IMG/VR virus record: IMGVR_UViG_3300035070_001969
Coordinates: 1 to 33,680 of that record
DNA: 33,680 bases
Source: a virus
Reading direction: 5' to 3' (one strand)
This document shows positions 8,301 through 25,495 of this stretch, one piece after another (position 1 is the stretch's first letter; every line of letters begins with the position of its first letter). Below the pieces are notes generated by a model. It was not told the origin of the DNA, did not search any database, and was given only the letters and a program-made list of their open reading frames with translations. The position numbers were made by a program, and so were the translations under genes.

Positions 8301-10207
8301 AAGGTGAAGCTCATAAAGAGTTTTTTGAAGAAACATTATTAAAACCTATAACTAGAGGTATTGATGCTATAAATCGAGCTAAGCAACAAATTAGAAACGA
8401 TTACGAAGCTCTTAAACAAGAAATGCCTAGCATACATAAGATGTTAAGGAACGATACTGGTTATAATAAATTTACTTATGACACAGCTATAAGAGTTTAT
8501 TTATGGAATAAAAATGGTATGGAAATACCTGGTTTATCTAAAACAGATGTTAAAAAACTTACAGCTATTGTTAAAGGTGATCCTGACATGGAGGCTTTTG
8601 CTAATAAAATAAGCGCAATAAGTAAATTAGATGAAGGTTACGTAAAGCCAGATGATATTTGGTTAACAAGCTCAATAGGTTTAGATTTAACAGCTATAAA
8701 TCAATTAGGTAAAAGATCTGATTATTTAAAAGAGTTTGTAGAAAATAAAAATGAAATATTTAGTCCTGAAAACTTAAATAAAGTACAAGCTGTATACGGT
8801 ACTGATTTTAGAGAAGCATTAGAAGATCTTATATATAGAATAGAAAAAGGTAGCAATAGAACATTTGGTCAAAATAAAGCCGTTAACAAATGGATGGACT
8901 GGATTAATAACGCAACTGGTACTATTATGTTTCTTAACACTAGATCAGCTGTTATGCAAACAATATCTTTTACAAACTTTATAAATTATTCAGATAATAA
9001 TATATTTGCAGCTGGTAAAGCTTTTGCTAATCAAACTCAGTTTTGGGAAGATTTTGGCATGATATTTAATTCTGACTTCTTAAAACAAAGACGTGGTGGT
9101 ATGACGCAGGATGTAAACTGGCAAGAAATAAGTGAGCAAGTTAAGGGTCATAAAGATCCAGTAAGAAAAGCTATTGCGGTGTTACTTCAAAAAGGTTTTG
9201 TATTTACACAAATGGCTGATAGTTTTGCAATTGCATTAGGTGGTTCTACTATGTACAGAAATAGAACAGAAGCATACATGAAGAATAAAAACATGTCTAG
9301 AGAAGCTGCTGAAGAACAAGCGTTTTTAGATTTTCAAGTAATAGCAGAAACAACACAGCAATCAGGTAGACCAGATCTTATATCTAAACAACAAGCTGGA
9401 CCATTAGGTAGAGTGATACTAGCATTTCAAAACGTAACAATGCAGTACAACAGGTTTTCTAAGAAAGAAATATTAGATTTTGCTAAAGGTAGAAGAGTTA
9501 AAGATCCTGTTACAGGTGGTTATCATACTTTAGCAAAAAGTAGAATGATACAGTTGTCAAGAGTTACTTACTACGTAGGTATGCAAAACTTGGTATTCAA
9601 CGCTATGCAAAATGCTATTTTTGCGCTAGCATTTGATGATGATGAGAAAGATGAAAAAGCAAAAGAAAAGTACAACAACATAGCAAATGGTATGGCTGAT
9701 TCAGTACTTAGAGGTATGGGTATAAAAGGTGCTATAGTAGCCATGTTGAAAAACACAATAATGGAATTTAAAAAGCAATCTGATAAACCTTCAAATAGAG
9801 CTGATTACGGTTATGTGTTAGTTGAAGCTTTCAATATATCACCACCTATTGGCAGTAAGGCTAGAAAAACATATTCAGCTTTACAAACCTATAAATTTAA
9901 TAAAAAAGAAATGATGCAGATGGGGCTTGATATAGACAACCCTGCTATTGAAGCTAGTTCTAACTTAATATCTGCTGCAACTAACGTGCCTACTGATAGA
10001 GTATATTATAAAATACAAAGTACAAGAGAAGTGCTAAACAACGAACATGAAGCTTGGCAACGTATGGCGGTGGCTCTTGGTTGGAGAACTTGGCAAGTAG
10101 GTATAGAAGATGATGAGCCTAGTAAAAAACCTAAACCAGATCCAAGGTTAAAGGAAAAAAATAAAGTTAGATCAAGACAGCTTACAAACCCAAGAAAAAT
10201 AAAATAA
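2339..10207 (+). CDS. Giant multidomain internal virion/ejection protein (polyprotein-like), T7 gene 16 position
   Basis: This 2622-residue protein is about twice the length of T7 gp16 and follows the gp15-position gene by 9 bases. A hydrophobic Gly/Ala segment lies around residues 380-480. A zincin-like motif HEFLH is at 776-780, with a downstream acidic EYMALFGE stretch. A HAD-like domain spans about 1750-1910, with DFDDT as motif I, FILTARPQ as motif II, and YFADDAIKN at its end. The final 700 residues are helix-rich and include a stretch like AFLDFQVIAETTQQSGRPD. A motif of the type hydrophobic-aromatic-S-K/S-R recurs near residues 918, 1289, 1728 and 1924, the last two flanking the HAD domain. 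Seen directly: motifs and length. From family knowledge: such proteins are packaged and ejected with DNA. Inferred: proteolytic maturation or modular polyvalent action. No lysozyme/SLT motif like that of T7 gp16 was found. Confidence 0.85.
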   Translation: MNREEYKQLLVDKGYDEEIINELLEEYDINLGKITGATTVGANAAPDITAPEDTGLTSEISLSDYPSLATTVKKDRKVPRGDEFGTIDTITEDVPTDFYTELSKTLDEKVVDKYLKGKTKEEARQVDTDEVLNDVFNNIQSQYIANDPFIKAKNKQYTALIQPQIDALKDKYSKLAKESSTSELSFENEFNLAELDKKFQEEYKELYAGFNDDVDVQKRLQAYVSVANKYSTDVSRKLGRNKDAIFRAIDVDIPIISDLGEGIYQGSMNAAQGFSGVELQMQQKGIQEASRELERLGKLNPEDESIWITNIVPKETEFDKPKIEKQTGTVAENIKFQEEKIKKATEKFEKTLLPYLKRQDDLQLFNPTDFSDGVSFGEAFRTLGQSLPYMGMAVVPYVGIPLVSATMYGQARRDILANQMSDKYKIPVEDLTAKDYIKFAKEEEENVNEFYVAAGAVAAGYLERIGASRVMKGVGKAMGVGDDVKQVFGSLLKGHYNRVAKSAVQQGKNMNFSGLIELGTEVGQETVLGLSQFMSDKNDESGTFLNNRYVKADQLFQAGAGGYIVGAMLPGIGGIGKQSIIELRQAARNFSTKFDISNNYAVSNEFFGSIRAEIQKRYNNGNLNSDNYKAEMDYLESLEAAGRTFRLNPDLKAKDKNKIFNNMLKKDDLVRRINTEQKRDVPNDVLIEKLKKQAALLNIDTENILGIDFVEKASKQLMAAGVINKDTTVEGTTTEELIAKGYDKKEIGDGVFDPETNTLFVNRDSDKKGIVTTAQHEFLHPLTKAMIASGKIDAMTIKNMVNKYDTNGYVQSRIKDEPQTYTPAYMEKNPDEYMALFGEGVLEGEIDIENNPNTALNFFKKLFNTGGIKGEIDFGTTEGLKNFVVEYAKSNKKGKLTDKLTSSLKGVTPAKGGDIALSSRLQPRLESEFNGNARSMLNQTLSSTPDGRVVDGMTVPFTESDFGQEIGGVVENQTQRLFDKIPQDLTRVLNEDRFKARQMFKDQMVMEAAAILQNEWDPSKQRSQSLDSWLTQLMVQRSQSLAKRMGIQDTFASETTGQEVDTSEETVQVDTEFVNIREGAFQIETGSPQYEKIINKVKDIITRKKLVKRSGKEVVLDFNNKNLRKDLNEIFQKEIRKILISEGLIPKNVDDYKAWLGKNKKRIWSKLSQDVINKRFKDLTTKVVDRQTRKQSKLNLNIKNLNAGNALFVKDNIDTDAFVKYFEGRARKESLGQALAIELANDATLQVMGDPDVLLKRDEKGLNKGTMQNESAVQAMAKVVQRPVDLVFSKRAAKLSQSTDPEAVKDYNEIRKILISKDFIDDLKMYASEPAGSKFNGIHRILQHHLRKAKDEGKITTVKIGELTAIGNEFVPKFIKTNFAHNLDVKNIAEKTANYLLANHDLNRDVISIKYGGLDGNNGFDKSDINLINNARLGYKDFKDAVEQGFIMDGDTKIPLPLDPANLSIVINHSWQPDSIGGFILTKDPAGIRIKQSEVKPHPKGSRTSTFRSINDFNKNVGEFKVTQNKGVTLGKKDPYLKDTNQNINPSDYNGIRTEGLKYKQILKDTIETYRILNQYGYITNKQMRVHIEALFQDTGGLGRKAAELTLIPTVRKDVMSKLLGIDPNDVFVFEHMIPANVVANLAYEYIISGSAKSKKNLDAELKNYKGAIIPKAIDDIIKDRGQQSNMGVRHEFGKDPLDTRYKEVMSFMELHDLENGGTVGSNNFVYSKRSKEALIDKAIEMARRTDAPKKGITVMDFDDTIAKTKSMIGVTTKDGKFIKIDATQFALQSAALEEQGAIFDFSEFNEVKKGQKGPLFDVIKKRVEKFGNKDVFILTARPQAAAPAIKKFLSDNGVDIPLENITGLENGTPEAKADFMIAKAADGYNDFYFADDAIKNVKAVKDVLDIVDVKSDIQQAREDVVYSKRGKKSQRFNEILEETKGIRAETTYSDAAGKARGDGTGNWNIFIEPSAEDFGGLLLQFAGKGKQGEAHKEFFEETLLKPITRGIDAINRAKQQIRNDYEALKQEMPSIHKMLRNDTGYNKFTYDTAIRVYLWNKNGMEIPGLSKTDVKKLTAIVKGDPDMEAFANKISAISKLDEGYVKPDDIWLTSSIGLDLTAINQLGKRSDYLKEFVENKNEIFSPENLNKVQAVYGTDFREALEDLIYRIEKGSNRTFGQNKAVNKWMDWINNATGTIMFLNTRSAVMQTISFTNFINYSDNNIFAAGKAFANQTQFWEDFGMIFNSDFLKQRRGGMTQDVNWQEISEQVKGHKDPVRKAIAVLLQKGFVFTQMADSFAIALGGSTMYRNRTEAYMKNKNMSREAAEEQAFLDFQVIAETTQQSGRPDLISKQQAGPLGRVILAFQNVTMQYNRFSKKEILDFAKGRRVKDPVTGGYHTLAKSRMIQLSRVTYYVGMQNLVFNAMQNAIFALAFDDDEKDEKAKEKYNNIANGMADSVLRGMGIKGAIVAMLKNTIMEFKKQSDKPSNRADYGYVLVEAFNISPPIGSKARKTYSALQTYKFNKKEMMQMGLDIDNPAIEASSNLISAATNVPTDRVYYKIQSTREVLNNEHEAWQRMAVALGWRTWQVGIEDDEPSKKPKPDPRLKEKNKVRSRQLTNPRKIK

Positions 10208-15017: not shown

Positions 15018-15258
15018 AATTAAAGGTGGTGGAACAAAGAAAGTTTGTTTGCCATATAATAAATACAAAAGCATGAGCAAAGCTGAAAAGCAAAAAGTAA
15101 TACGTGCTAAACGTAGTGCTGCAGCTCAAGGTAAATATAAAAGATCTAGTAAGTCTAATGTAAAAGGCGCTAGAAAAAAAGGAGCTACACTACGTGATTG
15201 GTTCCAAAAAGAAAAATGGGTTAATATAGCTAATGGTAAGCCTTGTGGCGCTAAGTAG
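15004..15258 (+). CDS. Basic small protein with C-terminal RDWFxKEKWV...PCG motif
   Basis: I take the ATG at 15004 (MPKSKIKGGGTKK), not the in-frame ATG at 14983. It gives 84 residues, very rich in Lys/Arg, with CLPYNKYKSMSKAEKQKVI in the middle and LRDWFQKEKWVNIANGKPCG at the end. That end resembles a small domain of unknown function (DUF5872-like, by memory) found in phages and large viruses. It is the last rightward gene. Its stop overlaps the 3' end of the convergent leftward gene by eight bases, with no hairpin between them. Confidence 0.8.
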   Translation: MPKSKIKGGGTKKVCLPYNKYKSMSKAEKQKVIRAKRSAAAQGKYKRSSKSNVKGARKKGATLRDWFQKEKWVNIANGKPCGAK

Positions 15259-16078
15259 TTTTAACCCTTGATTTGTAATATTTAGTTCTTTCATTAGAGG
15301 CTGTTATTATCATTGGTAAGTTCTTTGCCCAGCCTGTATACTTAATACTTCTCTTTTTTAAATCACTTAATATATGCCAAGTAACTTGATTTGTTCTTGT
15401 TAACCAAGAAACAAATTGTTCTTCGAGATAAGTATCATGAGCACTTGCTGCCCTTAAATATATAGGTAAATGCCAGCTATGTGGATCGTGTGCGCTTATG
15501 TTTGATTTTTTAGATTTTTTATTATATCCAACTCTTTTAGCTGGTGTTGATTTTGTAAAGAAATCAAAGCCTATCAATGATAAGCTTTTATATGTTTTAA
15601 CTTTTTCTATAAACCACAATATAGTTAGAAAACCACTTGATGGTCTAAGATCAGTACCTATAATATCTTTATCAAAAACTTTCATAGTATCAATAATTTC
15701 TTTATCACTATACATTTCTTGATAACCATATTTTATTAAATGAGGACACATATGTTTTTCAATAACAAACTCTTTTAAATGAAAGTTACCTCTTGATCTA
15801 TTTAGTAATATGTGTGTATTTTCAAACTTACCACCAGGTTTAAAATGATCTTTCATTTTTCTAAACGCATGAGATCTAAACTGACCAGTAACCCATACAT
15901 CAACTCTTTCGCTTAGTGATTTTTCTTGTAATGATGTAGCTTCTAATGCTCTACCAAACTTAACAACTATATCGTGGCTTTCTATAAATTTAGCATGTTC
16001 ATGCTTCATTATTTCTACAGAATTACCAACAAATATAACTGATTTATCTTTTACTATTTTCCTAATATCTTTCTCCAT
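15251..16078 (-). CDS. GT29-like (sialyltransferase-type) glycosyltransferase, probable CMP-sugar user
   Basis: The 275-residue product shows the elements of the GT29 fold: VIFVGNS (residues 14-20) as the L-motif nucleotide site, an SHDIVVKFGRA strand, RPSSGF (145-150), SLIGFDFF (167-174), and an H-D-x-Y-L-E-E segment (214-220) at the position of the downstream His/Glu motifs. GT29 enzymes use CMP-activated sialic acids, and the operon also encodes CMP-Kdo synthetase, so a CMP-Kdo donor is a reasonable inference. The acceptor is unknown. There is no signal peptide, so it acts in the cytoplasm. It is the last gene of the leftward operon and overlaps the preceding gene by 25 bases. Confidence 0.75.
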   Translation of the reverse strand: MEKDIRKIVKDKSVIFVGNSVEIMKHEHAKFIESHDIVVKFGRALEATSLQEKSLSERVDVWVTGQFRSHAFRKMKDHFKPGGKFENTHILLNRSRGNFHLKEFVIEKHMCPHLIKYGYQEMYSDKEIIDTMKVFDKDIIGTDLRPSSGFLTILWFIEKVKTYKSLSLIGFDFFTKSTPAKRVGYNKKSKKSNISAHDPHSWHLPIYLRAASAHDTYLEEQFVSWLTRTNQVTWHILSDLKKRSIKYTGWAKNLPMIITASNERTKYYKSRVKTT

Positions 16079-16704
16079 TCATTTGCAAATTCACAATCTT
16101 TATACTCTTTAAACCAAGGTCCACCATTTGTAAAGTGTATACCCTTAGCGTTACTAGAACCATCTTGTTCTCCAACTAAATGATTCCATATTTTATCAAT
16201 CTCACTTATTTTGTTTTCAGCCCAAGCTAATTGGTGTAAATCCGCAGCGCTAGCATTGTCTAAATATTCTTTTGTTAAAATATCTTTTAACTTTTCATTA
16301 TTAAAAACCATTAATGAACTCCAGTTTTTTCTTGGATACGCTTTATTTACAATGCCGTCCATTTTGGTAGATTTTGATTCATAATACTTATGCTTAACAC
16401 AAGCTACTAAATCTCTATCGTTTAGTTGTTTAAAAATTTTAGCAACATCATCTCTAAATATAAAGTCATTATCACAAAACATAGACACACCTTTGTAGGC
16501 AGACATAAGTGGCACATAAAACCTAGTAAATGAAAACTCTGTTGATTCACCTTGTATATCTTTTCTACCATACACACCTTTGTTTATTAACTTATGTTTA
16601 TATAAAGGTATTACTTTAATGTTTTTGTTATATGCTTTAATCGAATTGTAGCATGCTTTAGTAGCGTCTGGGTATCTGCTATCATGCCCTATAAATACTC
16701 TCAT
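16054..16704 (-). CDS. GT-A-type (GT8-like) glycosyltransferase
   Basis: This 216-residue protein begins with an MRVFIGHDSRYPDATKACY strand-helix typical of nucleotide-sugar glycosyltransferases. It has an FCDNDFIF segment with Asp78-x-Asp80 as the metal-binding DxD motif, RKNWSSLMVFN (125-135), and HFTNGGPWF (190-198) near the end, as in GT8-like enzymes. The acceptor cannot be read from sequence. It overlaps kdsA by four bases (ATGA), so it belongs to the Kdo operon and probably acts on the same glycan as the GT29-like protein. Confidence 0.8.
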   Translation of the reverse strand: MRVFIGHDSRYPDATKACYNSIKAYNKNIKVIPLYKHKLINKGVYGRKDIQGESTEFSFTRFYVPLMSAYKGVSMFCDNDFIFRDDVAKIFKQLNDRDLVACVKHKYYESKSTKMDGIVNKAYPRKNWSSLMVFNNEKLKDILTKEYLDNASAADLHQLAWAENKISEIDKIWNHLVGEQDGSSNAKGIHFTNGGPWFKEYKDCEFANEWRKILGK

Positions 16705-17453
16705 ACTAATTGTTTTAATATTTCTTCAAATTTATCTAACTTAATCATATTAGACCCGTCACTCCATGCAGCGCTAGGATTTTCGTGTACTTCAAAAAAG
16801 TAACCATCAACGCCAACTGCTTTCGCAGCTTTTGCAATGTGTATAGCATAGCGTGGTTGACCAGCCGTTGTGCTACCTGAATTAGGTCTTTGTGTTGAGT
16901 GGGTGCAGTCCATTATAACTGGTACACCTAACTCTTTCATATCTACGATCTGTCTAAAATCTACAACAAGATCACCCATACCAAACATACTACCTCTTTC
17001 AGTTAGCATAATATTATTATTACCTGTACTTTTAACTTTATTAACAGCATGCACCATATTACTACCATTTATAAACTGTCCTTTTTTAATATTAATATTT
17101 CTAAACGTATTACCTGCAGCAACTAATAAATCAGTTTGTCTACATAAATAAGCTGGTATTTGTATAATGTCTACAACGTCAGCTAACCTATCTGCTTGCC
17201 AAGGCTCATGTATATCTGTTGTAATCTTACAACTATCTAAATCTTTCAACTCAGCAAATATATCTATAGCTTTGTCTATACCAATACCTCGTTTAGAGTT
17301 TACAGACGTTCTATTAGCCTTGTCAAATGAAGCTTTGAAATAATAGTCAAAGCCATATTTGTCCGCTAGCTCTTGACATTTGTTAGATATTTCATGAGCT
17401 TGTATTCTACCTTCTAGACTACACGGACCAGCTATTAATATCGGTTTTTTCAT
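16701..17453 (-). CDS. kdsA: 3-deoxy-8-phosphooctulonate synthase (Kdo-8-P synthase), metal-dependent class
   Basis: KdsA condenses phosphoenolpyruvate with arabinose-5-phosphate to make Kdo-8-phosphate. The 250 residues show the family signatures in order: IAGPCSLEG, FKASFDKANRTS, TTDIHEPWQ, IIQIPAYLCRQTDLL, LTERGSMFGMGDLVVDFR, CTHSTQ and FFEVHENPSAAWSDGSN. Cys11, His185, Glu221 and Asp232 occupy the metal-ligand positions of the Aquifex-type metal-dependent class. E. coli KdsA has Asn at the Cys position and needs no metal. It has four-base ATGA overlaps with the methyltransferase gene upstream and the glycosyltransferase gene downstream. The Kdo-8-P phosphatase and arabinose-5-P isomerase are not in the window and would come from the host. 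Confidence 0.95.
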   Translation of the reverse strand: MKKPILIAGPCSLEGRIQAHEISNKCQELADKYGFDYYFKASFDKANRTSVNSKRGIGIDKAIDIFAELKDLDSCKITTDIHEPWQADRLADVVDIIQIPAYLCRQTDLLVAAGNTFRNINIKKGQFINGSNMVHAVNKVKSTGNNNIMLTERGSMFGMGDLVVDFRQIVDMKELGVPVIMDCTHSTQRPNSGSTTAGQPRYAIHIAKAAKAVGVDGYFFEVHENPSAAWSDGSNMIKLDKFEEILKQLV

Positions 17454-18076
17454 GGAGTAAAATTTATTATTATTTTATGTTTTGGTATATATTTTCTTAA
17501 TAATTTTTTCCACTCACCTCTTGGCATTAACGTGCAGTGCATATTTTCACCGTCCATAAAATGCGCGTGTGAAGGGCTTTGTGGTATTGACATTACTATT
17601 GCGCCACAAGTACACGTTAAATCAGCTATATCTCTTAACAATGCAGGCAGCTCTTCTAATGGCACGTGCTCTATAACATCATTAACAACTGTTAAATCAA
17701 ATTTAATATCTGGTGGTCTCATATAATACTTAGGGTGAAAAGGATCGTACCTGTAAAAACCCTGTAAGTTTTCACCAAGAAACTGTGTAAGTGTCATGGC
17801 ATCATATTTTTCAGGAACACGTTTACCTGGTTTAGTATATTTTTCACCGTTGTAAATAGCCATTTTATTATCCCAAACCATACCAGATCCACAACCATAA
17901 TCTAATAACATTGTGCCAGGGTTTTCATCAACCCACTTTTTAACAGGTTTTAGTACAGTTTTAAAACCTGCACCATTACCATAGTTACCTTTTTTTACTC
18001 TCCATTCGCCGTCTGGATATTTTATTTTATATTCAGCACCTTCGTGTAGTGCTTTGTATTTTTCTGCATATTTCAT
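17450..18076 (-). CDS. SAM-dependent class I methyltransferase
   Basis: In 208 residues, motif I is MLLDYGCGSGMVW (56-68) and the acidic motif around VNDVIEHVP (131-139) is typical of Methyltransf_11/23-type small-molecule methylases. A Cys-rich strand, CTCGAIVMSIPQ, follows. There is no DNA-methylase DPPY or PC motif, so a sugar, lipid or small-molecule substrate is more likely than DNA. It sits between kdsA and kdsB with ATGA overlaps on both sides, so methylation of a Kdo-containing glycan or of a precursor is plausible. Confidence 0.85.
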   Translation of the reverse strand: MKYAEKYKALHEGAEYKIKYPDGEWRVKKGNYGNGAGFKTVLKPVKKWVDENPGTMLLDYGCGSGMVWDNKMAIYNGEKYTKPGKRVPEKYDAMTLTQFLGENLQGFYRYDPFHPKYYMRPPDIKFDLTVVNDVIEHVPLEELPALLRDIADLTCTCGAIVMSIPQSPSHAHFMDGENMHCTLMPRGEWKKLLRKYIPKHKIIINFTP

Positions 18077-18711
18077 TTTATATCATTATAAGTGTTAATT
18101 TCTACGCCATTATATGTAGTTTCAACTACATCAATATCGTATAAACCTAATATTTTGTTTTGTTCTAAGTTTTCTGATTTATATTTATCTTTCATAGCTC
18201 TATATGCTTTTAACAAATAAGGTTTATAAGCATATATACCTAAGTGTCTATCACCATAACCTATGTCAGATCTTGTAAACCACATTGCTTTACCATTTTG
18301 ATGTATAACTTTAACATCATCTGATTTAGCGCCTTTAGTATATGCAGTTAAACATACTACATCTTTTTTGTTTAATGCTTTTATTATAGGTTTAATTGTA
18401 TCTAGATTTATATCAAGCATATCACCTTGTATGTTTAATACATAATCATATCCATTTACTAAATCTAATACAACTCGTTTAGATAATCTATGTGTACCGT
18501 TATCGGCTTTACCTGTTTGTATACACCATTTCATAGGAAACAGTTTAGCAATACGCTTGCTGTCTGTTGCTACAAATGTATCATATCCCATCATACGTAC
18601 TTTATCAAACACAAGACGTATTAGAGGTTCATCATCGAACTTCATTAACATTTTGTGTTTGAGTCTAGTACTATTAAGTCTTGCTGGTATAACTACCGCT
18701 ATGTTTTTCAT
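18073..18711 (-). CDS. kdsB: CMP-Kdo synthetase (3-deoxy-manno-octulosonate cytidylyltransferase)
   Basis: KdsB activates Kdo with CTP to CMP-Kdo, the donor for Kdo transferases. The 212-residue protein has IPARLNSTRLKHKML (8-22) as the CTP loop, FVATDSKRIA (46-55), then GKADNGTHRLSKRV (67-80), and VLNIQGDML (91-99). Family members have about 250 residues and read SGT(E/D)R and NVQGDEP at the last two sites. Here the Asp/Glu of SGT(E/D)R is His, and EP after GD is ML. The fold assignment is clear; the sugar specificity could be shifted. Adjacent to kdsA in the same operon, which supports Kdo or a close 3-deoxy-ulosonic acid. Confidence 0.88.
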   Translation of the reverse strand: MKNIAVVIPARLNSTRLKHKMLMKFDDEPLIRLVFDKVRMMGYDTFVATDSKRIAKLFPMKWCIQTGKADNGTHRLSKRVVLDLVNGYDYVLNIQGDMLDINLDTIKPIIKALNKKDVVCLTAYTKGAKSDDVKVIHQNGKAMWFTRSDIGYGDRHLGIYAYKPYLLKAYRAMKDKYKSENLEQNKILGLYDIDVVETTYNGVEINTYNDIK

Positions 18712-19052
18712 GTCTTAGTACCAGCTGTTCTTCTGATTATATCATCGTGATTAAACTCAGCCCAATATAATTCAAAAGCAACACCATCTTCAACACCTTC
18801 AAACTGATGTATCTTACCAGGTTTTACCATAGTAAAATCACCTGCTTCAAGTATTGTTTCATCAACAAGACCTTGATCTTCTTGCCATACCCTGACAAGC
18901 ATTTTACCGGATTCTACAAAAAATCCGTTCCATTTAAATCTATGCTCATGTTCAGAGCATTTAAATCCTTTATTAAATTCTATTCGGTGAAACTCCATGA
19001 CACCATTTTTATGTATCATTTCTGTTTTACCCCATATTTTACCTGCTTTCAT
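18708..19052 (-). CDS. Single-domain cupin protein
   Basis: The 114 residues form a compact cupin: SEHEHRFKWNGFFVESGKM carries His35 and His37 with an acidic residue further on, and EAGDFTMVKPGKIHQFEG carries the second-motif His82. That gives a full metal site. Sugar isomerase/epimerase-like or oxygenase-like roles are possible. No substrate can be named. It overlaps kdsB by four bases and so is probably co-translated with the sugar genes. Confidence 0.8.
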   Translation of the reverse strand: MKAGKIWGKTEMIHKNGVMEFHRIEFNKGFKCSEHEHRFKWNGFFVESGKMLVRVWQEDQGLVDETILEAGDFTMVKPGKIHQFEGVEDGVAFELYWAEFNHDDIIRRTAGTKT

Positions 19053-19239
19053 TTACTATTTTTTGTAATTTTTCTTTATCACCAAACAATATTAAACAAT
19101 CATAATCCTTTGTTTCAATATCCTCTATCTTTTCTACATTGTCAATAACCCATTTAGCGCAAAACGCCTTATTCAAATTAGGCATTAACGTTGCGTTTCT
19201 AATATTGTGAGGAGCTTCTACTATTGCTACTCTATTCAT
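19039..19239 (-). CDS. Small hypothetical protein in the sugar operon
   Basis: This 66-residue protein starts MNRVAIVEAPHN and contains a hydrophobic strand, DYDCLILFGDKEKL. It looks like a small alpha/beta domain, but I do not recognise it. It starts four bases inside the end of the oxygenase gene (ATGA) and its end overlaps the cupin start by 14 bases, so it is embedded in the operon and very likely translated. Confidence 0.7.
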   Translation of the reverse strand: MNRVAIVEAPHNIRNATLMPNLNKAFCAKWVIDNVEKIEDIETKDYDCLILFGDKEKLQKIVNESR

Positions 19240-20063
19240 TTTTTTAAATTATTAAAATATGTTTCTTTCCATCGTGTTCCGCCCATCCTAAATTTTCTAG
19301 GTACATCTCTTGTGCTATTACCTTTAGCATCATAATATAAATCTTCGGGCATCCAGTTATACCAACCATCTCTTTTCACACCTTTTTTAGTTATCTGAAA
19401 CTTTTTTAATGATTGATTTTGTTTGTTTGGAAAATGAATACTTATAGATATTCTAGGCGTAAGTGATTCGGCTTTATGGTATCTGTACTGTGGTATGTAC
19501 AATAAATCTCCAGCTTCTAAAACAAACTCATCAATAACCTTTCCAGGTTTTCTTTCAGGTGCAGAGTTATCATATATAGTCCATTTAACTTTACCCTCTG
19601 TATGAAACAAAAAGTTTTCTGTACTATCGCAATGCGCTGGAAAACCAACAGCATCTTTTTTACTTGAGCAATATATATTAACTTGACCTCTTTCAAAATA
19701 TCTTTCAAGCTCATCGCATATTTCAACAAAGTCTTGTTTAGTATATTCTGCCATTGAAAGAACAAATGTTTTACCAGACCTCCACAGGTCTAATACTTCT
19801 TTTTTCTTTAACATAGGTAATTTTAATTTACCTTTATTTACTTTATCTAAACACCACTTATTACCTTTACCATCATAATCTAGTATCTGTAAGTGGTTTA
19901 AATTTCTAGGGTAACCATTTAATAAATTAGTAAAATCATGCCATTTAAATAAATTTTTAAATGTATTTCTTCTAATAACTAAATGTTTTTTACCCCAATA
20001 GTTCAGCCAGAACCTCTTAGGATCGACTGGATCTAGTATTTGTTTTATTGTTATATTATCCAT
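19236..20063 (-). CDS. JmjC/cupin-fold 2-oxoglutarate Fe(II) oxygenase-like protein
   Basis: The 275-residue protein resembles the bacterial ribosomal-oxygenase (RoxA/YcfD) and cupin-4/8 group. FWLNYWGKKHLVIRR at 18-32 is the typical N-terminal W/G-K-P-like entry. The iron facial triad is visible as His144-x-Asp146 (PAHCDSTENF) and His196 (PQYRYHKAES), and EAGDLLYIP precedes the last His. RoxA enzymes hydroxylate His or Arg on ribosomal proteins; other members act on small molecules. In a phage it could modify a protein or the sugar made next door. Its start overlaps the nrdA stop by eight bases. Confidence 0.85.
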   Translation of the reverse strand: MDNITIKQILDPVDPKRFWLNYWGKKHLVIRRNTFKNLFKWHDFTNLLNGYPRNLNHLQILDYDGKGNKWCLDKVNKGKLKLPMLKKKEVLDLWRSGKTFVLSMAEYTKQDFVEICDELERYFERGQVNIYCSSKKDAVGFPAHCDSTENFLFHTEGKVKWTIYDNSAPERKPGKVIDEFVLEAGDLLYIPQYRYHKAESLTPRISISIHFPNKQNQSLKKFQITKKGVKRDGWYNWMPEDLYYDAKGNSTRDVPRKFRMGGTRWKETYFNNLKK

Positions 20064-21777
20064 CGCAACTTAAACAGTTAGGGTCCATAGCTTGAGATGC
20101 AATATCACCTCTTAATACAGACTCGGTTCTCATATAATATAGAGTTTTAATACCTTTTTTCCAAGCTTCTAAATGTACTTTATTAATCCATTTAGGATCT
20201 GCTTGTGAAGGGAAAGCTAAATTCAAACTTACAGACTGATCTATATATTGCTGTCTGATACCAGCTTGATTAACTAACTCTAATTGATTTATTTCTTTAA
20301 AAGTTTTGTAAACTTCTTTTATAGGTACGTTGTGTTCTCCTATAGTAACGTTCTCTAATTGTTTGATACCTTGTATTGAACCTCCGTCTCTCAGTATTTG
20401 GTCCCATGTTTTTTTATTGTTTAATTTATGTTTTTCTAATTCTTTTATTAAAGTTGGATTTTTTCGGATGAAAGTTCCTTTTGCGCTTTGGTCTGTAAAG
20501 ACGTTAGCAGCCCAAGGTTCAATACCCGGTGAAATATTACCAGCAAGCTTACTATTGCTAACAGTAGGAGCAATAGCACGTAAATGAGTATTACGAAAAC
20601 CAGTTCCAACACACCAAAGAGGTTCTCCATACTGCTCTGCCAAAGCCATACTAGCTCTTTCGCTTTCAATTTTAATTTGTGAAAATATTCTTCTTGTCTC
20701 ATATTGTGCTAATAATCCTTCAAAAGGAAATCCTTTTTGTTGTAGATATGTATGCCAACCTAAAACACCTAAACCTAGTGCTCTACCTTTTTCTGCAGAT
20801 CTTACAGCGTTTTCAAATCCTCTTCTATTTTTTGCTTTCTGTATAAACTCTTCTAATACACCGTCTAAAAACCATATGCTATCATATATTAAATTAGAGT
20901 CTTTCCATTCGTGGTATTTAGCTAAGTTTAAACTAGATAAACAGCAAACGAAGCTATGGTTTTCATCCGTGTGTAATACTATCTCTGAACAAATATTTGT
21001 CATAAATACTTTCAGAGCATTATCTTTGTATGCAGCTGGGTTATTTTTATTAATATTACCCTTGTACATTATATAAGGTTCACCTGTTGCTTTACGCTTT
21101 TGTAGCAATTTACCCCATTTACGTCTTGCAACTTTATCACCATCTCTAAGCTTACGCATAAACTTATCACCAATTATAGTACATTGATGTAGGTTTAATG
21201 ATTGTCTATTAACATCACCTTTAGGCTCTCTTATTTCTAACCAGTCTTCCCAGTCTTTATGATCTATATTTAAGTTAACTGATGCAGCACCTCTTCTTAC
21301 AGCTCCTTGGTTGGTAGCTAGTATTGTAGAGTCATATATTTTACAGAAAGGTACAACACCATCTGATGTACCATTCATTGTAATATTTGCACCAGAAGGT
21401 CTTATCATGTTTAGACCAATACCAACACCACCGCCATGCTTAGCTAGTAGCATCATTTCTAGGTTTTTAGTACCTATGTCGTAAATGCTATCAGCAACAT
21501 CGATACCAAAGCAACTAATAGGCAAGCCACGGTCAGTACCAGTATTGCTAAGTACAGGTGACGCAAGACATAACCAACCTTTCCATATGTACGTAAAAAA
21601 CGTCTCTTCCATTTCTGGTTTCTGTAGTCTTTGCGCAACCGTTCTAGCAACTCTTCTGTACGCTTCTCTTGGTGTTTCTCCATTATGTAAATATCCTCCT
21701 GTTATTGTTTTTTTATATACATCGGCGTCTGCCCACTCTGGGTAGTCTTCGCCTTTTTTCCATCTATTGCTCCACAT
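20056..21777 (-). CDS. nrdA: Ribonucleotide reductase class I, large (catalytic) subunit
   Basis: NrdA reduces NDPs to dNDPs. Key residues are visible: Cys89 in PISCFGID and Cys278/279 in FVCCLSSLN form the redox pair. N-I-C-S-E at 261-265 holds the thiyl Cys263 with Asn261 and Glu265. KTLYYMR has the radical-transfer Tyr547/Tyr548. PNCLSC at the end has Cys568 and Cys571 for re-reduction. At 573 residues it is shorter than E. coli NrdA (761) and lacks the N-terminal ATP-cone, so overall activity control by dATP is probably lost, useful for a phage. It lies five bases after nrdB in the same operon. Confidence 0.95.
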   Translation of the reverse strand: MWSNRWKKGEDYPEWADADVYKKTITGGYLHNGETPREAYRRVARTVAQRLQKPEMEETFFTYIWKGWLCLASPVLSNTGTDRGLPISCFGIDVADSIYDIGTKNLEMMLLAKHGGGVGIGLNMIRPSGANITMNGTSDGVVPFCKIYDSTILATNQGAVRRGAASVNLNIDHKDWEDWLEIREPKGDVNRQSLNLHQCTIIGDKFMRKLRDGDKVARRKWGKLLQKRKATGEPYIMYKGNINKNNPAAYKDNALKVFMTNICSEIVLHTDENHSFVCCLSSLNLAKYHEWKDSNLIYDSIWFLDGVLEEFIQKAKNRRGFENAVRSAEKGRALGLGVLGWHTYLQQKGFPFEGLLAQYETRRIFSQIKIESERASMALAEQYGEPLWCVGTGFRNTHLRAIAPTVSNSKLAGNISPGIEPWAANVFTDQSAKGTFIRKNPTLIKELEKHKLNNKKTWDQILRDGGSIQGIKQLENVTIGEHNVPIKEVYKTFKEINQLELVNQAGIRQQYIDQSVSLNLAFPSQADPKWINKVHLEAWKKGIKTLYYMRTESVLRGDIASQAMDPNCLSCDG

Positions 21778-21782
21778 ATTAT

Positions 21783-22751
21783 TTACCAGATATTTTCGAA
21801 ATCTTCTCCCTCATTTGCTTTACTGTAGTCTGTCGACCTAATAGCAAAAAAGTCAGTATGGGTATGACCACCAGTAAGATGATAAAACCAATCAAGCTCT
21901 TTTGCCGCTTCTTCGTCGTATTTAAATTCTTTTGAGAGCTCTTTGTATCCGAGCTCCACAAGTTTTTCATTTATTCTTTTCTTTATAAATTGTTTTAAAT
22001 CATAAGATTTCATTCCTTCAATATCTCCTGCTTCAAACATCTTATCTATATATTTCATTTCAGCATCGTGCATAACTTGCGCGGCTTCTATTATATGTGG
22101 TTTACAAGACTCTTTTAAAAAGTCTTTTTCTTCACACATATGTCTGAATAATCTACAGCCCATGCGGCTATGTAATGATTCATCTCTTACACTCCATTTC
22201 ATTTGTTGACCTACACCTTTTAACAAGTTTCTCATTTGAAAGCTATATAAAACTGCAAACGCAGAATATAAACTAACGCCTTCAGCAAATGCACTAAACA
22301 CAGCTAAAGACTTACCGATCTCTACAGGATCATTACCATCATAAGCCACTAGATTATCAAACCTCTCTGCTGTTGCTGGCTCATGTAAGAAAGCTTCAAA
22401 GTCCTCAAGACCTAAAGTTTCATTTAAGTAACTATATGCTACTGCGTGTATAGTTTCTTGTGAACCAAACATCATTGCCATTTGTTGTATCTCGTGTTTA
22501 GGAAACCATCCTACAACTTTTTGTGTCCAATAATCAGACACTGCACATTCTGTTTGAGCAAAGCCTAGTAGTATATTTCCTACTAGGTTTTTTTCTTCTT
22601 TTGTTAAATGTTCATTCCAGTCTTTTACATCACCTGACATAGGTATTTCTGTGTGTAACCAAAACGCTTGAGCTTGTTTCAACCAACCCTCAGTATAATA
22701 CTCTGGGTACTCAAAAGGTTTATACGCTATTCTGTTATCAAATAATCCCAT
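21783..22751 (-). CDS. nrdB: Ribonucleotide reductase class I, small (radical) subunit
   Basis: The 322-residue ferritin-like protein supplies the radical to NrdA. Metal ligands can be read as Glu68 (FAQTECAVSD), Glu99 and His102 (SQETIHAVAY), Glu157 (SAFAEGVSLY), and Glu191 and His194 (VRDESLHS). Tyr106, four residues after His102, fits the radical Tyr. The first ligand is Glu where the E. coli protein has Asp, a variation known from some subclasses. The C-terminus is acidic and ends FENIW, as expected for the tail that docks on NrdA. It is upstream of nrdA, an order common in marine phages. Confidence 0.95.
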   Translation of the reverse strand: MGLFDNRIAYKPFEYPEYYTEGWLKQAQAFWLHTEIPMSGDVKDWNEHLTKEEKNLVGNILLGFAQTECAVSDYWTQKVVGWFPKHEIQQMAMMFGSQETIHAVAYSYLNETLGLEDFEAFLHEPATAERFDNLVAYDGNDPVEIGKSLAVFSAFAEGVSLYSAFAVLYSFQMRNLLKGVGQQMKWSVRDESLHSRMGCRLFRHMCEEKDFLKESCKPHIIEAAQVMHDAEMKYIDKMFEAGDIEGMKSYDLKQFIKKRINEKLVELGYKELSKEFKYDEEAAKELDWFYHLTGGHTHTDFFAIRSTDYSKANEGEDFENIW

Positions 22752-23603: not shown

Positions 23604-23820
23604 CTTCAATACATTTTTTAGCAGCTTCAATATACAATAAAGCATCCATTATCTCTTCTTGTACATCTGTTAAAAACATACACAAGCCTTTCTTGCCTGT
23701 TTCTATTTCGTTACACATTGTTTGGCCATATTTCTTTTGGCCAGTAATGCTACGATTATCCATCTTCCTTAGTACAGCCTGTACTATCTTATCTTTAGTT
23801 TTAATCTGCATCTTTGACAA
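23587..23820 (-). CDS. Small helical protein, MazG-like/phage conserved
   Basis: This 77-residue protein has QKKYGQTMCNEIETG, then a helix, VQEEIMDALLYIEAAKKC, in which E-E-x-x-D-A is spaced as in one half of all-alpha NTP pyrophosphatases. It lacks the second acidic helix needed for a full MazG site. It may be a partner or a relic of such an enzyme. It overlaps the MazG fusion gene start region by 20 bases and the endonuclease by 17 bases. Confidence 0.72.
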   Translation of the reverse strand: MSKMQIKTKDKIVQAVLRKMDNRSITGQKKYGQTMCNEIETGKKGLCMFLTDVQEEIMDALLYIEAAKKCIEDEKKD

Positions 23821-24589
23821 ATGTTCCGTTAACCATTTTACCTGTACGTTTAGATATTACGTTATATGCTTCTGATATACACGTTTCTATGTTTACATTA
23901 TTTAAATGTGCTAAGTTAGTTAATACTACAACCATATCACCAATAGCATCTATAACTTCTGGCTTATCGTTTTCTAGTGTAGCTTTAGCTAGCTCACCCA
24001 TTTCTTCTTGTAGTTTGATTAATTGAGTTTTAGTATCACCTTTATCGTATAGTCCTCTTTCATCAGCCCATTGTCTAATGTTTTCAAACATTTTTAAAGG
24101 TTTTTTACAGCATTTAACTACTGGTTTTTCAAACACATCATTGTTTTCGTAGAACCTAGCAAATGCTTTGTTATATACATAACTTCTATTATTATTAAAC
24201 ATAGAAGTTTTAACGTTTTTCATTATCCAGTTTATTGTTTTAGGTGTTATATCTAACTTACCGTGATCAGTTTGCCAAGACATACCCATATTATCAAACA
24301 ATTGACCTTTTAATTTATCCACCGGAACTGGAAACGTTGTGGTCTGTTCAGTTATATTTATATTCATATTTGATTTTGGTTTAAGGTTTTTATATGGTAC
24401 CATATCTACCCGGTAGCCATATTCTCTTTGTAATTTTCTCTCTTTTGTTGATATATAATCAACATCAGTAGAGCTTTCTAGTATTTCATATTCATCAGGG
24501 TTATAACCTTGCTGAACTGTGACCCGGTTATTAAGATCACAGGTAACACCAATTTTTTTACCTGGAATATGATAAATATAATATGTCAT
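23801..24589 (-). CDS. GIY-YIG-like domain fused to MazG nucleotide pyrophosphohydrolase
   Basis: The 262-residue protein has an N-terminal stretch YYIYHIPGKKIGVTCDLNNR (3-22) that fits the start of a GIY-YIG domain, with Y-x-Y...K-I-G-V-T...R. Its middle region (75-150) is unassigned. Its C-terminal MazG domain (about 165-262) has the E-x-x-E / E-x-x-D metal site as Glu196, Glu199, Glu211 and Asp214 (EEMGEL, EVIDAIGDMVVVL). MazG hydrolyses NTPs or dNTPs, and phage MazG is thought to adjust nucleotide pools or ppGpp. The GIY-YIG part lacks a visible full catalytic set, so nuclease activity is uncertain. It overlaps the ThyA-like gene by four bases. Confidence 0.85.
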   Translation of the reverse strand: MTYYIYHIPGKKIGVTCDLNNRVTVQQGYNPDEYEILESSTDVDYISTKERKLQREYGYRVDMVPYKNLKPKSNMNINITEQTTTFPVPVDKLKGQLFDNMGMSWQTDHGKLDITPKTINWIMKNVKTSMFNNNRSYVYNKAFARFYENNDVFEKPVVKCCKKPLKMFENIRQWADERGLYDKGDTKTQLIKLQEEMGELAKATLENDKPEVIDAIGDMVVVLTNLAHLNNVNIETCISEAYNVISKRTGKMVNGTFVKDAD

Positions 24590-25227
24590 AATTTATCGTT
24601 ATATATATGCATGTTATGTGCGTGATGGTAATACCACCCTGTGTCCATAGACAGTCTCTCTGCAACAAGTTTTTGTAACATACTAAAACAGTATTGATCA
24701 TTACAAAAGCCGTACCAGAGATCATTAGATCGCATATAAACAGACATATTTAGTTTATCATTAAGTATTGTAAATTGAACAGCATATGTACAAGGAGTAT
24801 CAGACTCATATGTACCGTGTTCTTTACAATCGTATATACTTATAGCAGCGTGTCTTGTTTCTTTATAGTTTTTAAGCTTATTGACTACATAATCTATTTG
24901 ATGATTACGTTGCCATTGCCAACCGTAATTACTTCTTACGTGACCATTTTCATCTGCCATTTTTTCCCATATAGGTGGAACCTTACCATATATATCACCT
25001 AGCTTTTTAACACTAGGATCGCCAGATAAGTACCATTGCCATTCGGCTTCAGCATAATCAGGCTTCCAATTACGATCTTCGTTTGTTATATAATTTTCTA
25101 ATGGTTTTTCAATTGTAAAGCCACAATTAAATATAGCCTTTGTATTGTCAAAATCAACACCATTTCTTATTATATAATCCCACAAGTAATTGTATGCGTG
25201 ATTAGCGTTGTAAAATTTATTTTCCAT
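24586..25227 (-). CDS. Thymidylate synthase-family enzyme, dCMP (hydroxymethylase)-type active site
   Basis: From the ATG at 25227 (MENKFYNAN) the protein has 213 residues, and key positions fall on E. coli ThyA numbering: Cys146 nucleophile (DTPCTYAVQF), Arg166 (YMRSNDLW), His207 and Tyr209 (HNMHIY). ThyA Asn177, which selects dUMP, is Asp here (FCNDQY), as in T4-type dCMP hydroxymethylases. The chain ends four residues after Tyr209, about 50 residues short of ThyA, so the usual C-terminal folate-closing tail is missing. A dCMP hydroxymethylase or methylase is favoured over a standard thymidylate synthase. An ATG at 25257 would overlap the previous gene more. MazG and NrdAB genes are its neighbours. 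Confidence 0.85.
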   Translation of the reverse strand: MENKFYNANHAYNYLWDYIIRNGVDFDNTKAIFNCGFTIEKPLENYITNEDRNWKPDYAEAEWQWYLSGDPSVKKLGDIYGKVPPIWEKMADENGHVRSNYGWQWQRNHQIDYVVNKLKNYKETRHAAISIYDCKEHGTYESDTPCTYAVQFTILNDKLNMSVYMRSNDLWYGFCNDQYCFSMLQKLVAERLSMDTGWYYHHAHNMHIYNDKL

Positions 25228-25495
25228 GTTTATTGTAATAATATAATTGATATTCACTTATCTTCTCCCATATTCTAATTGGTCCATAAACATTAGGTGT
25301 TGATCCTAGTTTTTTACGATTAGGATATTTACCTTTTTCTATATCTATATACCAAATAGGCTCTCCCCATTTAGCTTGCCTTGGTGTTATACATATATCG
25401 TTTTCGTGACACCATAGTCTAGCTTTTTCTTCATTATCAGTTCGGGTGTATTCACCCATACTGTATTTCTTATTCCCACGGAAGGCTGCTGTCAT
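25217..25495 (-). CDS. Hypothetical protein, probable small alpha/beta domain
   Basis: The 92-residue frame contains EKARLWCHENDICITPRQAK followed by a strand IWYIDIEKGKYPN and an IRIWEKISEYQLYYY end. It is not recognised. The first ATG (25495) overlaps the primase-helicase end by 26 bases; an in-frame ATG at 25459 (MGEYTRT) avoids any overlap and could be the true start. It overlaps the ThyA-like gene by 11 bases and is part of the replication/nucleotide operon. Confidence 0.72.
   Translation of the reverse strand: MTAAFRGNKKYSMGEYTRTDNEEKARLWCHENDICITPRQAKWGEPIWYIDIEKGKYPNRKKLGSTPNVYGPIRIWEKISEYQLYYYNKHGK

Follow-up and report, generated by a model that had tools for sequence, protein, structure and literature searches.

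Phage genes for Kdo synthesis overlap genes for GT8- and GT29-like glycosyltransferases and suggest a phage glycosylation pathway

Why does a virus carry genes for making the sugar 3-deoxy-D-manno-octulosonic acid (Kdo), and to what might it attach the product? This question is raised by the window analysed here, the whole 33,680-base stretch of the virus record IMGVR_UViG_3300035070_001969, on whose minus strand genes for KdsA, a KdsB-type cytidylyltransferase and a methyltransferase run into genes for two putative glycosyltransferases, one with a predicted GT8 fold (GT8L) and one GT29-like (GT29L). With moderate confidence, we read this cassette as a phage glycosylation pathway in which two conserved transferases work with phage-supplied cytidine monophosphate-Kdo (CMP-Kdo) as the probable donor. 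The basis is the identity of KdsA, the predicted folds of both transferases, the conserved gene order, the presence of kdsB and kdsA (kdsBA) as a pair or not at all in relatives, and purifying selection. The gene cluster described in an earlier note on this DNA is confirmed, and the interpretation given there is supported in part.

The coordinates and overlaps reported earlier were exact: ATGA is shared by kdsB and the methyltransferase gene, by the latter and kdsA, and by kdsA and the GT8L gene, and the GT8L and GT29L genes overlap by 25 bases. A fourth ATGA overlap in the window couples a small cupin gene to kdsB. The run had been placed at 15251-18711; its genes stand, but it begins upstream with the cupin gene (18708-19052). 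Likewise, the members were named correctly but the order, given with kdsA first, was not, as transcription on the minus strand proceeds from cupin through kdsB, methyltransferase, kdsA and GT8L (the GT-A gene of the earlier note) to GT29L. The ratio of nonsynonymous to synonymous substitution rates (dN/dS) is 0.062-0.373 for GT29L, GT8L, KdsA and the KdsB-type protein (window versus five relatives; some dS values exceed 1). Because the frames are open in relatives, dN/dS is low and the order recurs in many contigs, the run is not a product of chance.

The fold of the 15251-16078 product had been chosen beforehand as the point on which the GT29 proposal could fail, and the top matches of the structure predicted for it are GT29 sialyltransferases. 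The structure is an AlphaFold2 model built on a 28-row alignment, with a predicted local distance difference test score (pLDDT) of 82.3 and a predicted template modelling score of 0.84. In a Foldseek search the first 38 rows were all sialyltransferases (6apl at 1.6e-7), and in a VIA search so were the first 24, led by ST3Gal-I (2wnf; Z 13.5 over 181 residues, root-mean-square deviation 3.1 angstrom). Lower VIA rows held the GT42 enzymes CstI and CstII (Z 9.2-10.5) and one Pasteurella sialyltransferase, the next rows being at 9.0 and 8.4, and a Maf transferase shares the fold at Z 7.5. A viral library searched with the same model returned proteins of giant viruses, herpesviruses and phages, among them a Fadolivirus protein (9.6e-8) and one uncultured phage protein already labelled glycosyl transferase family 29.

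The window GT29L carries VGNS (position 17), RPSSGF (145), IGFDFF (169), PHSWHLP (199) and AHDTYLE (213). We take VGNS to be the sialyl L-motif, PSxGF the S-motif and HxxxxE the His and Glu of motif VS; among 86 sequences, 56 of them distinct, these occur in 80, 86 and 86, respectively. The L-motif aligned to that of ST3Gal-I at 3.6e-4 with one profile (A4) and at 0.24 with another (A1). Of the 28 aligned members, 23 match PF00777 with E of 0.1 or less (best 1.4e-8), the window protein not being among them; the PF00777 cutoff of 23 bits is exceeded by L035 (30.1), L062 (30.4) and Stenotrophomonas phage DLP6 (31.8), with L059, L045, L013 and L029 below it (L numbers denote viral contigs or loci). 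GT29L thus shares its fold (Z 11.8-13.5) and the VGNS and PSxGF motifs with the GT29 sialyltransferases ST3Gal-I, ST6GalNAc2 and ST8SiaIII, but it is only about 10-16% identical to them, the window member lies below Pfam detection, and no membrane anchor was seen.

A precedent for the proposed donor exists in plants. Genetic evidence marks the plant GT29 member RCKT1 (MGP2) as a CMP-Kdo transferase, with Arabidopsis mutants devoid of Kdo in rhamnogalacturonan II (RG-II), although its authors stated that an in vitro assay was still required and that attempts at expression in E. coli had failed (PMC11288761). Because the mutants lack Kdo in RG-II, the idea that a GT29 enzyme can take CMP-Kdo gains support. 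RCKT1 and GT29L have family and proposed donor in common; unlike the phage protein, RCKT1 is a Golgi enzyme that acts on pectin, and its activity rests on mutants (PMC11288761). From its modelled structure, GT29L is probably a CMP-sugar transferase of GT29 fold, with CMP-Kdo as the probable donor.

The earlier claim of two transferases in the cluster also agrees with the predicted folds. For GT8L, the model (pLDDT 89.6) matched WbbM at 1.6e-9 (Z 17.4), and Z values of 16-17 were obtained for WbbM, GlyE, LgtC (16.8) and 3tzt, with glycogenin at about 16. A DND motif lies at positions 78-80, and neither D78 nor D80 varies in two alignments, one of 33 rows and one of 31. PF01501 matches three of 33 members (best 5.7e-8), the window member not included. 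The modelled fold of the former GT-A gene is thus that of GT8.

The identification of KdsA was upheld by TIGR01362 (Table 1) and by NF003543 (331 versus a cutoff of 242 bits); a third model, NF009109, stayed below its cutoff (227.6 versus 457 bits). The protein aligns over its whole length with the solved KdsA 1fwn, and the Cys, KANR, THS, ExH and SD are all present. Among 44 relatives, KANR, THS, ExH and the Cys of AG[PS]C are universal and SD[GS] occurs in 39. These motif residues are presumably catalytic and metal positions, and by the AGPC Cys we take the enzyme to be of the metal-dependent type. The NeuB family matched neither the window KdsA nor the other scanned window open reading frames (ORFs).

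The cytidylyltransferase belongs to the KdsB family (PF02348, 81 bits versus a cutoff of 22.6; best PDB match KdsB 2y6p at 5.1e-18), and IPAR, QGD and HxGxY are found in all 29 relatives. The methyltransferase is generic and optional: 18 of 30 kdsBA-bearing intervals gave a tblastn match and 12 did not, one of the latter (L030) holding a diverged methyltransferase by profile. As claimed before, KdsC and KdsD were not seen, as far as contigs that may be fragments can show, in profile scans of relatives and Pfam scans of window ORFs. The KdsC model, run on relatives only, matched none of 23 contigs, and Pfam scans of 30 window ORFs gave no such phosphatase; the KdsD model matched one of 23 relative contigs, a distant one, below cutoff; and a SIS domain was found in none of eight contigs including the window.

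From these parts we infer the donor, a hexose-first, Kdo-second order, and an acceptor. KdsA would condense host arabinose 5-phosphate with phosphoenolpyruvate to Kdo-8-phosphate, a host phosphatase would release Kdo, and the phage KdsB-type enzyme would activate it to CMP-Kdo. GT8L would place a hexose from a host nucleotide sugar on the acceptor, and GT29L would cap this hexose with Kdo from CMP-Kdo. In such a pathway kdsBA would raise the donor supply, and lineages without it would draw on host CMP-Kdo.

This role of kdsBA is suggested by its distribution in relatives. Viral contig scans gave 18 loci from GT29L, 53 from KdsA, and the best 80 of 402 matches from the GT29L alignment. Contigs of the close group, wherever they are of sufficient length, keep the order NrdB, NrdA, JmjC, cupin, GT8L, GT29L, while the distant L055-L058 and L060 have no GT29L and L059 carries the transferases in reversed order. 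Seventy intact cupin-GT8L intervals, drawn from the best 80 of 402 GT29L matches plus the earlier GT29L and KdsA matches and including many near-identical ones, held both kdsB and kdsA in 30 cases, neither in 40 and a single gene in none; this split is not a population frequency. In 38 of the 40 intervals without kdsBA the gap is 0-26 bases; it measures 553 bases in L131 and 782 bases in L059, which was scored as having neither gene while its kdsA lies upstream of the cupin gene and its GT29L precedes GT8L.

A scan anchored on KdsB avoids choosing loci on their transferases. It gave 41 loci, 31 of them with 3.5 kb downstream; 30 of these match kdsA and 29 carry GT8L and GT29L. One exception, L151, breaks off inside kdsA with a short kdsA match and runs on into a terminase that shares 61% identity with that of a Pelagibacter phage, which we read as an assembly chimera; the other, L166, has KdsB and cupin, with kdsA and the transferases absent within 6 kb on each side. 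On a tree of 56 distinct GT29L sequences and DLP6, the kdsBA state needs at least four changes versus 16.5 in shuffles, and well-supported branches force one, on what is a quick tree with the DLP6 outgroup on a very long branch. Given that the insert is both-or-neither and lies directly before the transferases, we read GT8L-GT29L as a fixed core and kdsBA as an optional supply module.

Some variants were seen within these intervals. Few proteins of the cluster are as conserved as the cupin, with identities of mostly 84-100% in the close marine group and 44-50% in L056-L059; its gene keeps close to kdsA in distant phages as well. Between kdsA and GT8L an alternative insert encodes a small Cys-rich protein (DGCTxCC; L048:8744-9175, L030:2935-3366, L050:1515-1940), whose L048 member had no Pfam match. 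The KdsA of L059 (7950-9341) has about 200 extra C-terminal residues, and Pfam assigns the KdsA part only.

Several findings weigh against a Kdo pathway of this kind. Searched by itself, the GT29L of the window matches nothing in Pfam, NCBIfam, PHROG or the PDB sequences, the PF00777 cutoff was passed in one of ten contigs searched, and the catalytic residues (HxxxxE) are assigned by motif match only, without residue-by-residue alignment to a solved enzyme. The KdsB-type protein misses all NCBIfam KdsB cutoffs (best 113.8 versus 193 bits; TIGR00466 69.2 versus 155.2), and its GVD motif reads G-x-E in 29 of 29 relatives, with Glu for the Asp that we take to be the second metal ligand. Because of both, we call it KdsB-type and not KdsB, its product being uncertain; of the earlier assignment, the family holds and the specific identity is doubtful. 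Furthermore, DLP6 has the GT8L-GT29L pair and no kdsA or kdsB match, cyanophage S-SCSM2R has kdsA, kdsB and GT8L and no GT29L in its 244 kb genome, and L059 has kdsA, GT29L and GT8L with no KdsB found on its contig. Since these three combine the parts differently, the link between kdsBA and the transferases is not universal. Genes kept together also need not share a pathway, NrdA, JmjC and cupin being equally constant.

The same observations bear on the idea that a different CMP-sugar serves the KdsB-type enzyme and GT29L, for example a Kdo derivative methylated by the methyltransferase, or that the genes are unrelated neighbours. In its favour are the Glu in all 29 relatives, the methyltransferase match in 18 of 30 kdsBA intervals and the 40 of 70 intervals with GT29L and no kdsBA. 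Against it stand a KdsA above the Kdo-8-phosphate synthase cutoff and the lack of a NeuB family match in the scanned ORFs, and we regard this explanation as distinctly unlikely.

Given CMP-Kdo as donor, the resemblances of GT8L point to more than one acceptor. Glycogenin, GlyE and LARGE1, all similar to the GT8L model, act on protein or glycoprotein. GT8L might accordingly start a glycan on a side chain of a virion or host protein, to which GT29L would add Kdo, giving an acidic coat. In Caulobacter phage CcrColossus, a tail gene adjoins the start of a transferase cluster that includes a GT8L relative, and glycosylation of mycobacteriophage virions is cited in PMC12619734. The window cassette, however, lies among genes of nucleotide metabolism and replication, and the large plus-strand genes occupy the other strand; no acceptor protein was identified, and GT8L resembles the lipopolysaccharide (LPS) enzymes LgtC and WbbM as well. 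Glycosylation of protein is a doubtful explanation of the cassette.

WbbM and LgtC, which build LPS, are among the top GT8L matches, and KdsA and KdsB are enzymes of LPS precursors. CMP-Kdo and the two transferases might thus alter or cap the LPS of the host, for instance against superinfection, and terminal Kdo on an O-antigen is known from WbbB (PMC9587256). Against this, a crude hydropathy scan showed no strong membrane segment in GT8L or GT29L, although enzymes of LPS synthesis can be peripheral, and a WaaA-type Kdo transferase was absent from nine contigs. A change of the host envelope seems unlikely to us.

A third acceptor is suggested by genes that lie upstream of the cassette (Table 1). 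On the same strand, orf66 and the JmjC, NrdA and NrdB genes stand just before the cupin gene.

Table 1. Cassette genes and selected upstream genes of the window (positions in the 33,680-base stretch)
Feature	Position	Strand	Evidence
GT29L, GT29-like (sialyltransferase-fold) transferase, 275 aa	15251..16078	-	member profile matches, predicted structure
GT8L, GT8-fold glycosyltransferase (predicted), 216 aa	16054..16704	-	phrog_28018 2.7e-49, structure model
KdsA, KDO-8-phosphate synthase, 250 aa	16701..17453	-	TIGR01362 325.8 bits vs cutoff 314
S-adenosylmethionine-dependent methyltransferase, 208 aa	17450..18076	-	PF13489 31.2 bits vs cutoff 27
KdsB-type cytidylyltransferase (CMP-Kdo synthetase relative), 212 aa, shortened, diverged	18073..18711	-	PF02348
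Small cupin, 114 aa, first gene of ATGA-coupled run	18708..19052	-	PF07883 31 bits vs cutoff 27.2
JmjC_2 protein, conserved neighbourhood	19236..20063	-	PF08007 58.7 bits vs cutoff 22; syntenic
NrdA and NrdB ribonucleotide reductase, upstream neighbours	20056..22751	-	PF02867, PF00268; syntenic
MazG-like pyrophosphohydrolase, directly after hydroxymethylase-type gene	23801..24589	-	phrog_1992 4.4e-33
Thymidylate-synthase-fold enzyme, probable dCMP-hydroxymethylase type	24586..25257	-	PF00303; Asp in RSNDLWYGFCND

The 24586-25257 product is labelled thymidylate synthase by PHROG, but its first PDB match is the T4 dCMP hydroxymethylase 1b49 (1.2e-16), and five of the first six rows are dCMP or CMP hydroxymethylases, a thymidylate synthase being second (4e-16; 64.2 versus 62.5 bits). 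It has Asp at the site of thymidylate synthase Asn177, which we take (in ThyA numbering) to be the site that discriminates the dCMP type. This T4-type gene is present in 13 kdsBA-bearing contigs and in four without kdsBA, namely L111, L119 and the contigs of loci L114 and L131. Eleven others lacking kdsBA have a distinct, fuller ThyA-type gene at this position, ahead of MazG, likewise with Asp (LPYDIA versus LPFNIA); the one member tested is nearest to ordinary thymidylate synthases. Asp occurs in all 31 loci showing either signature (20 T4-type in 17 contigs, 11 ThyA-type), by a pattern that left the Asp/Asn site free and counts only genes matching the flanking letters. The MazG-like gene keeps its place in relatives. 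Judged by these sequences, the gene is probably of the dCMP-hydroxymethylase type and cytosine modification is likely in the phage group. DNA with hydroxymethylcytosine thereby becomes a candidate acceptor, and a more serious one than the earlier note made it look.

An account built on this, which overlaps the Kdo pathway, is that the phage makes 5-hydroxymethyl-dCMP and that GT8L and GT29L glycosylate hydroxymethylcytosine in DNA as a protection against restriction. Besides the T4 enzyme as first PDB match and the Asp in 31 of 31 signature loci, the MazG-like gene that follows the hydroxymethylase-type gene and the basic character of GT29L (median isoelectric point 9.53 over 56 sequences) are in line with it. 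Many non-sugar proteins of the window are equally basic, however, and the T4 enzyme scores a mere 1.7 bits above the best thymidylate synthase. The ThyA-type case rests on one residue in a protein nearest to ordinary thymidylate synthases, and DLP6, with its GT8L-GT29L pair, matched neither enzyme type, nor did three other GT8L phages. TAGT, the TET-associated transferase family, was found in none of 12 contigs. To our knowledge, no DNA glycosyltransferase belongs to GT8 or GT29, which also counts against a DNA acceptor. A precedent is the arabinosyl-hydroxymethylcytosine of phage RB69 (PMC6024577). T4 and RB69 have a dCMP hydroxymethylase-type enzyme in common with the window, and RB69 also has candidate phage genes for the supply of uridine diphosphate (UDP)-arabinose (PMC6024577); their transferases belong to other fold families and use UDP-sugars, whereas the window cassette would combine GT8 and GT29 folds with CMP-Kdo. 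On balance we hold DNA hypermodification to be doubtful too, if slightly ahead of protein glycosylation in our judgement. In its specific form, in which the phage would replace cytosine with 5-hydroxymethylcytosine and build a hexose-Kdo disaccharide on its own DNA through phage-made CMP-Kdo and the GT8- and GT29-type enzymes, it is rather unlikely. One GT29L relative had given a TAGT match (8.4e-4), which we set aside as its row of origin was not traced and it did not recur in 12 contigs.

If the cassette is indeed a glycosylation pathway with CMP-Kdo as donor, 5-hydroxymethylcytosine in the phage's own DNA would, by a narrow margin, be the foremost acceptor, as a possibility short of probable; a virion or other protein would come next, with some doubt, a host surface glycan would be unlikely, and any other acceptor improbable.

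Parts of this cassette are already known separately, namely viral kdsA and kdsB, Kdo pathways of giant viruses and viral GT29-like proteins. kdsA and kdsB are auxiliary genes of marine viruses, found in surface and subsurface ocean viromes and listed under LPS biosynthesis (PMC10653327). The available part of that article names no operon or transferase partner for them, whereas the window links both to a transferase pair. A Kdo pathway has been reported for Cafeteria roenbergensis virus and Fadolivirus (PMC9614988). Like the window, these viruses encode Kdo synthesis genes, and Fadolivirus also has the GT29L-like protein; in contrast, they infect protists and Fadolivirus is reported to add a phosphatase/isomerase, whereas the window has only kdsA and kdsB, coupled to two transferases. 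Among the titles, abstract openings and passages covered by the literature search, mostly outside subscription journals, none describes kdsA and kdsB together with a GT29-like gene in one phage operon. Within that literature, two things are new, namely the modular cassette with its coupled genes and the connection to a dCMP-type enzyme.

The cassette ties viral kdsA and kdsB, which the literature searched mentions only as listed LPS auxiliary genes or from giant viruses, to a specific transferase pair in a widespread marine phage group and offers a testable donor for the GT29-like enzyme of bacterial viruses. Without a membrane anchor, the phage GT29L may be easier to assay than plant RCKT1. 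Should DNA prove to be the acceptor, its decoration with an acidic ulosonic-acid sugar would be a DNA modification of a new class; with a virion or host glycan as acceptor, phages would supply their own acidic sugar.

Related gene combinations occur in other phages. The DLP6 run AAY80_199 to 202 encodes two methyltransferases, GT8L and GT29L in this order; as in the window, GT8L is followed by an overlapping GT29L and methyltransferases are present, but DLP6 has no kdsA/kdsB or hydroxymethylase match and its GT29L is 30% identical. In L055 (7049-9992), KdsA stands beside a SIS-domain, KdsD-like protein, and two nearby proteins have weak MptE-like matches below cutoff; by sequence, this phage may combine Kdo synthesis with a possible CMP-sugar transferase fold in another way. 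CcrColossus gp126 (L168:4620-5270), annotated as 'alpha-2,3-sialyltransferase-like', lies beside a tail gene and near the GT8L relative; it did not match the GT29L profile, and its start (GGGPSL) looks MptE-like. No match to GT29L was obtained for Mosig_00187, tried for its overlap with GT8L, or for the S-SCSM2R neighbours 262, 263, 268 and 270. Acinetobacter phage MD-2021a was dismissed as a kdsA/kdsB precedent, as its contig, on which pyrG, kdsA, eno and ftsB occur together, resembles a bacterial chromosome, and kdsA matches of 25-30% in Listeria, Staphylococcus, Enterococcus and one faecal record are, in our reading, probably 3-deoxy-D-arabino-heptulosonate 7-phosphate synthases. The apparently cellular GT29L of L074 (a metagenome-assembled genome of Alphaproteobacteria) and L075 (Bacteroidetes MED-G20) both come from what look like phage contigs, and no host is claimed from them.

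Elsewhere in the window, replication genes (primase/helicase, exonuclease, Erf annealing protein, ligase and sigma factor) lie on the minus strand and an endolysin gene on the plus strand. A 2622-aa protein (2339-10207, plus strand) gave no Pfam match and one weak match to polynucleotide kinase at residues 1743-1937 (9.7e-5). Because terminase PHROG 2 was found in none of five contigs, no taxonomic placement is made. The sigma factor had only a weak match, to a Synechococcus phage, and a 693-aa protein had none. The nearest matches of NrdA and the primase were in Flavobacterium phage immuto (59%) and Cellulophaga phage phi10:1 (42%), respectively; a flavobacterial host would be a guess from these sequences.

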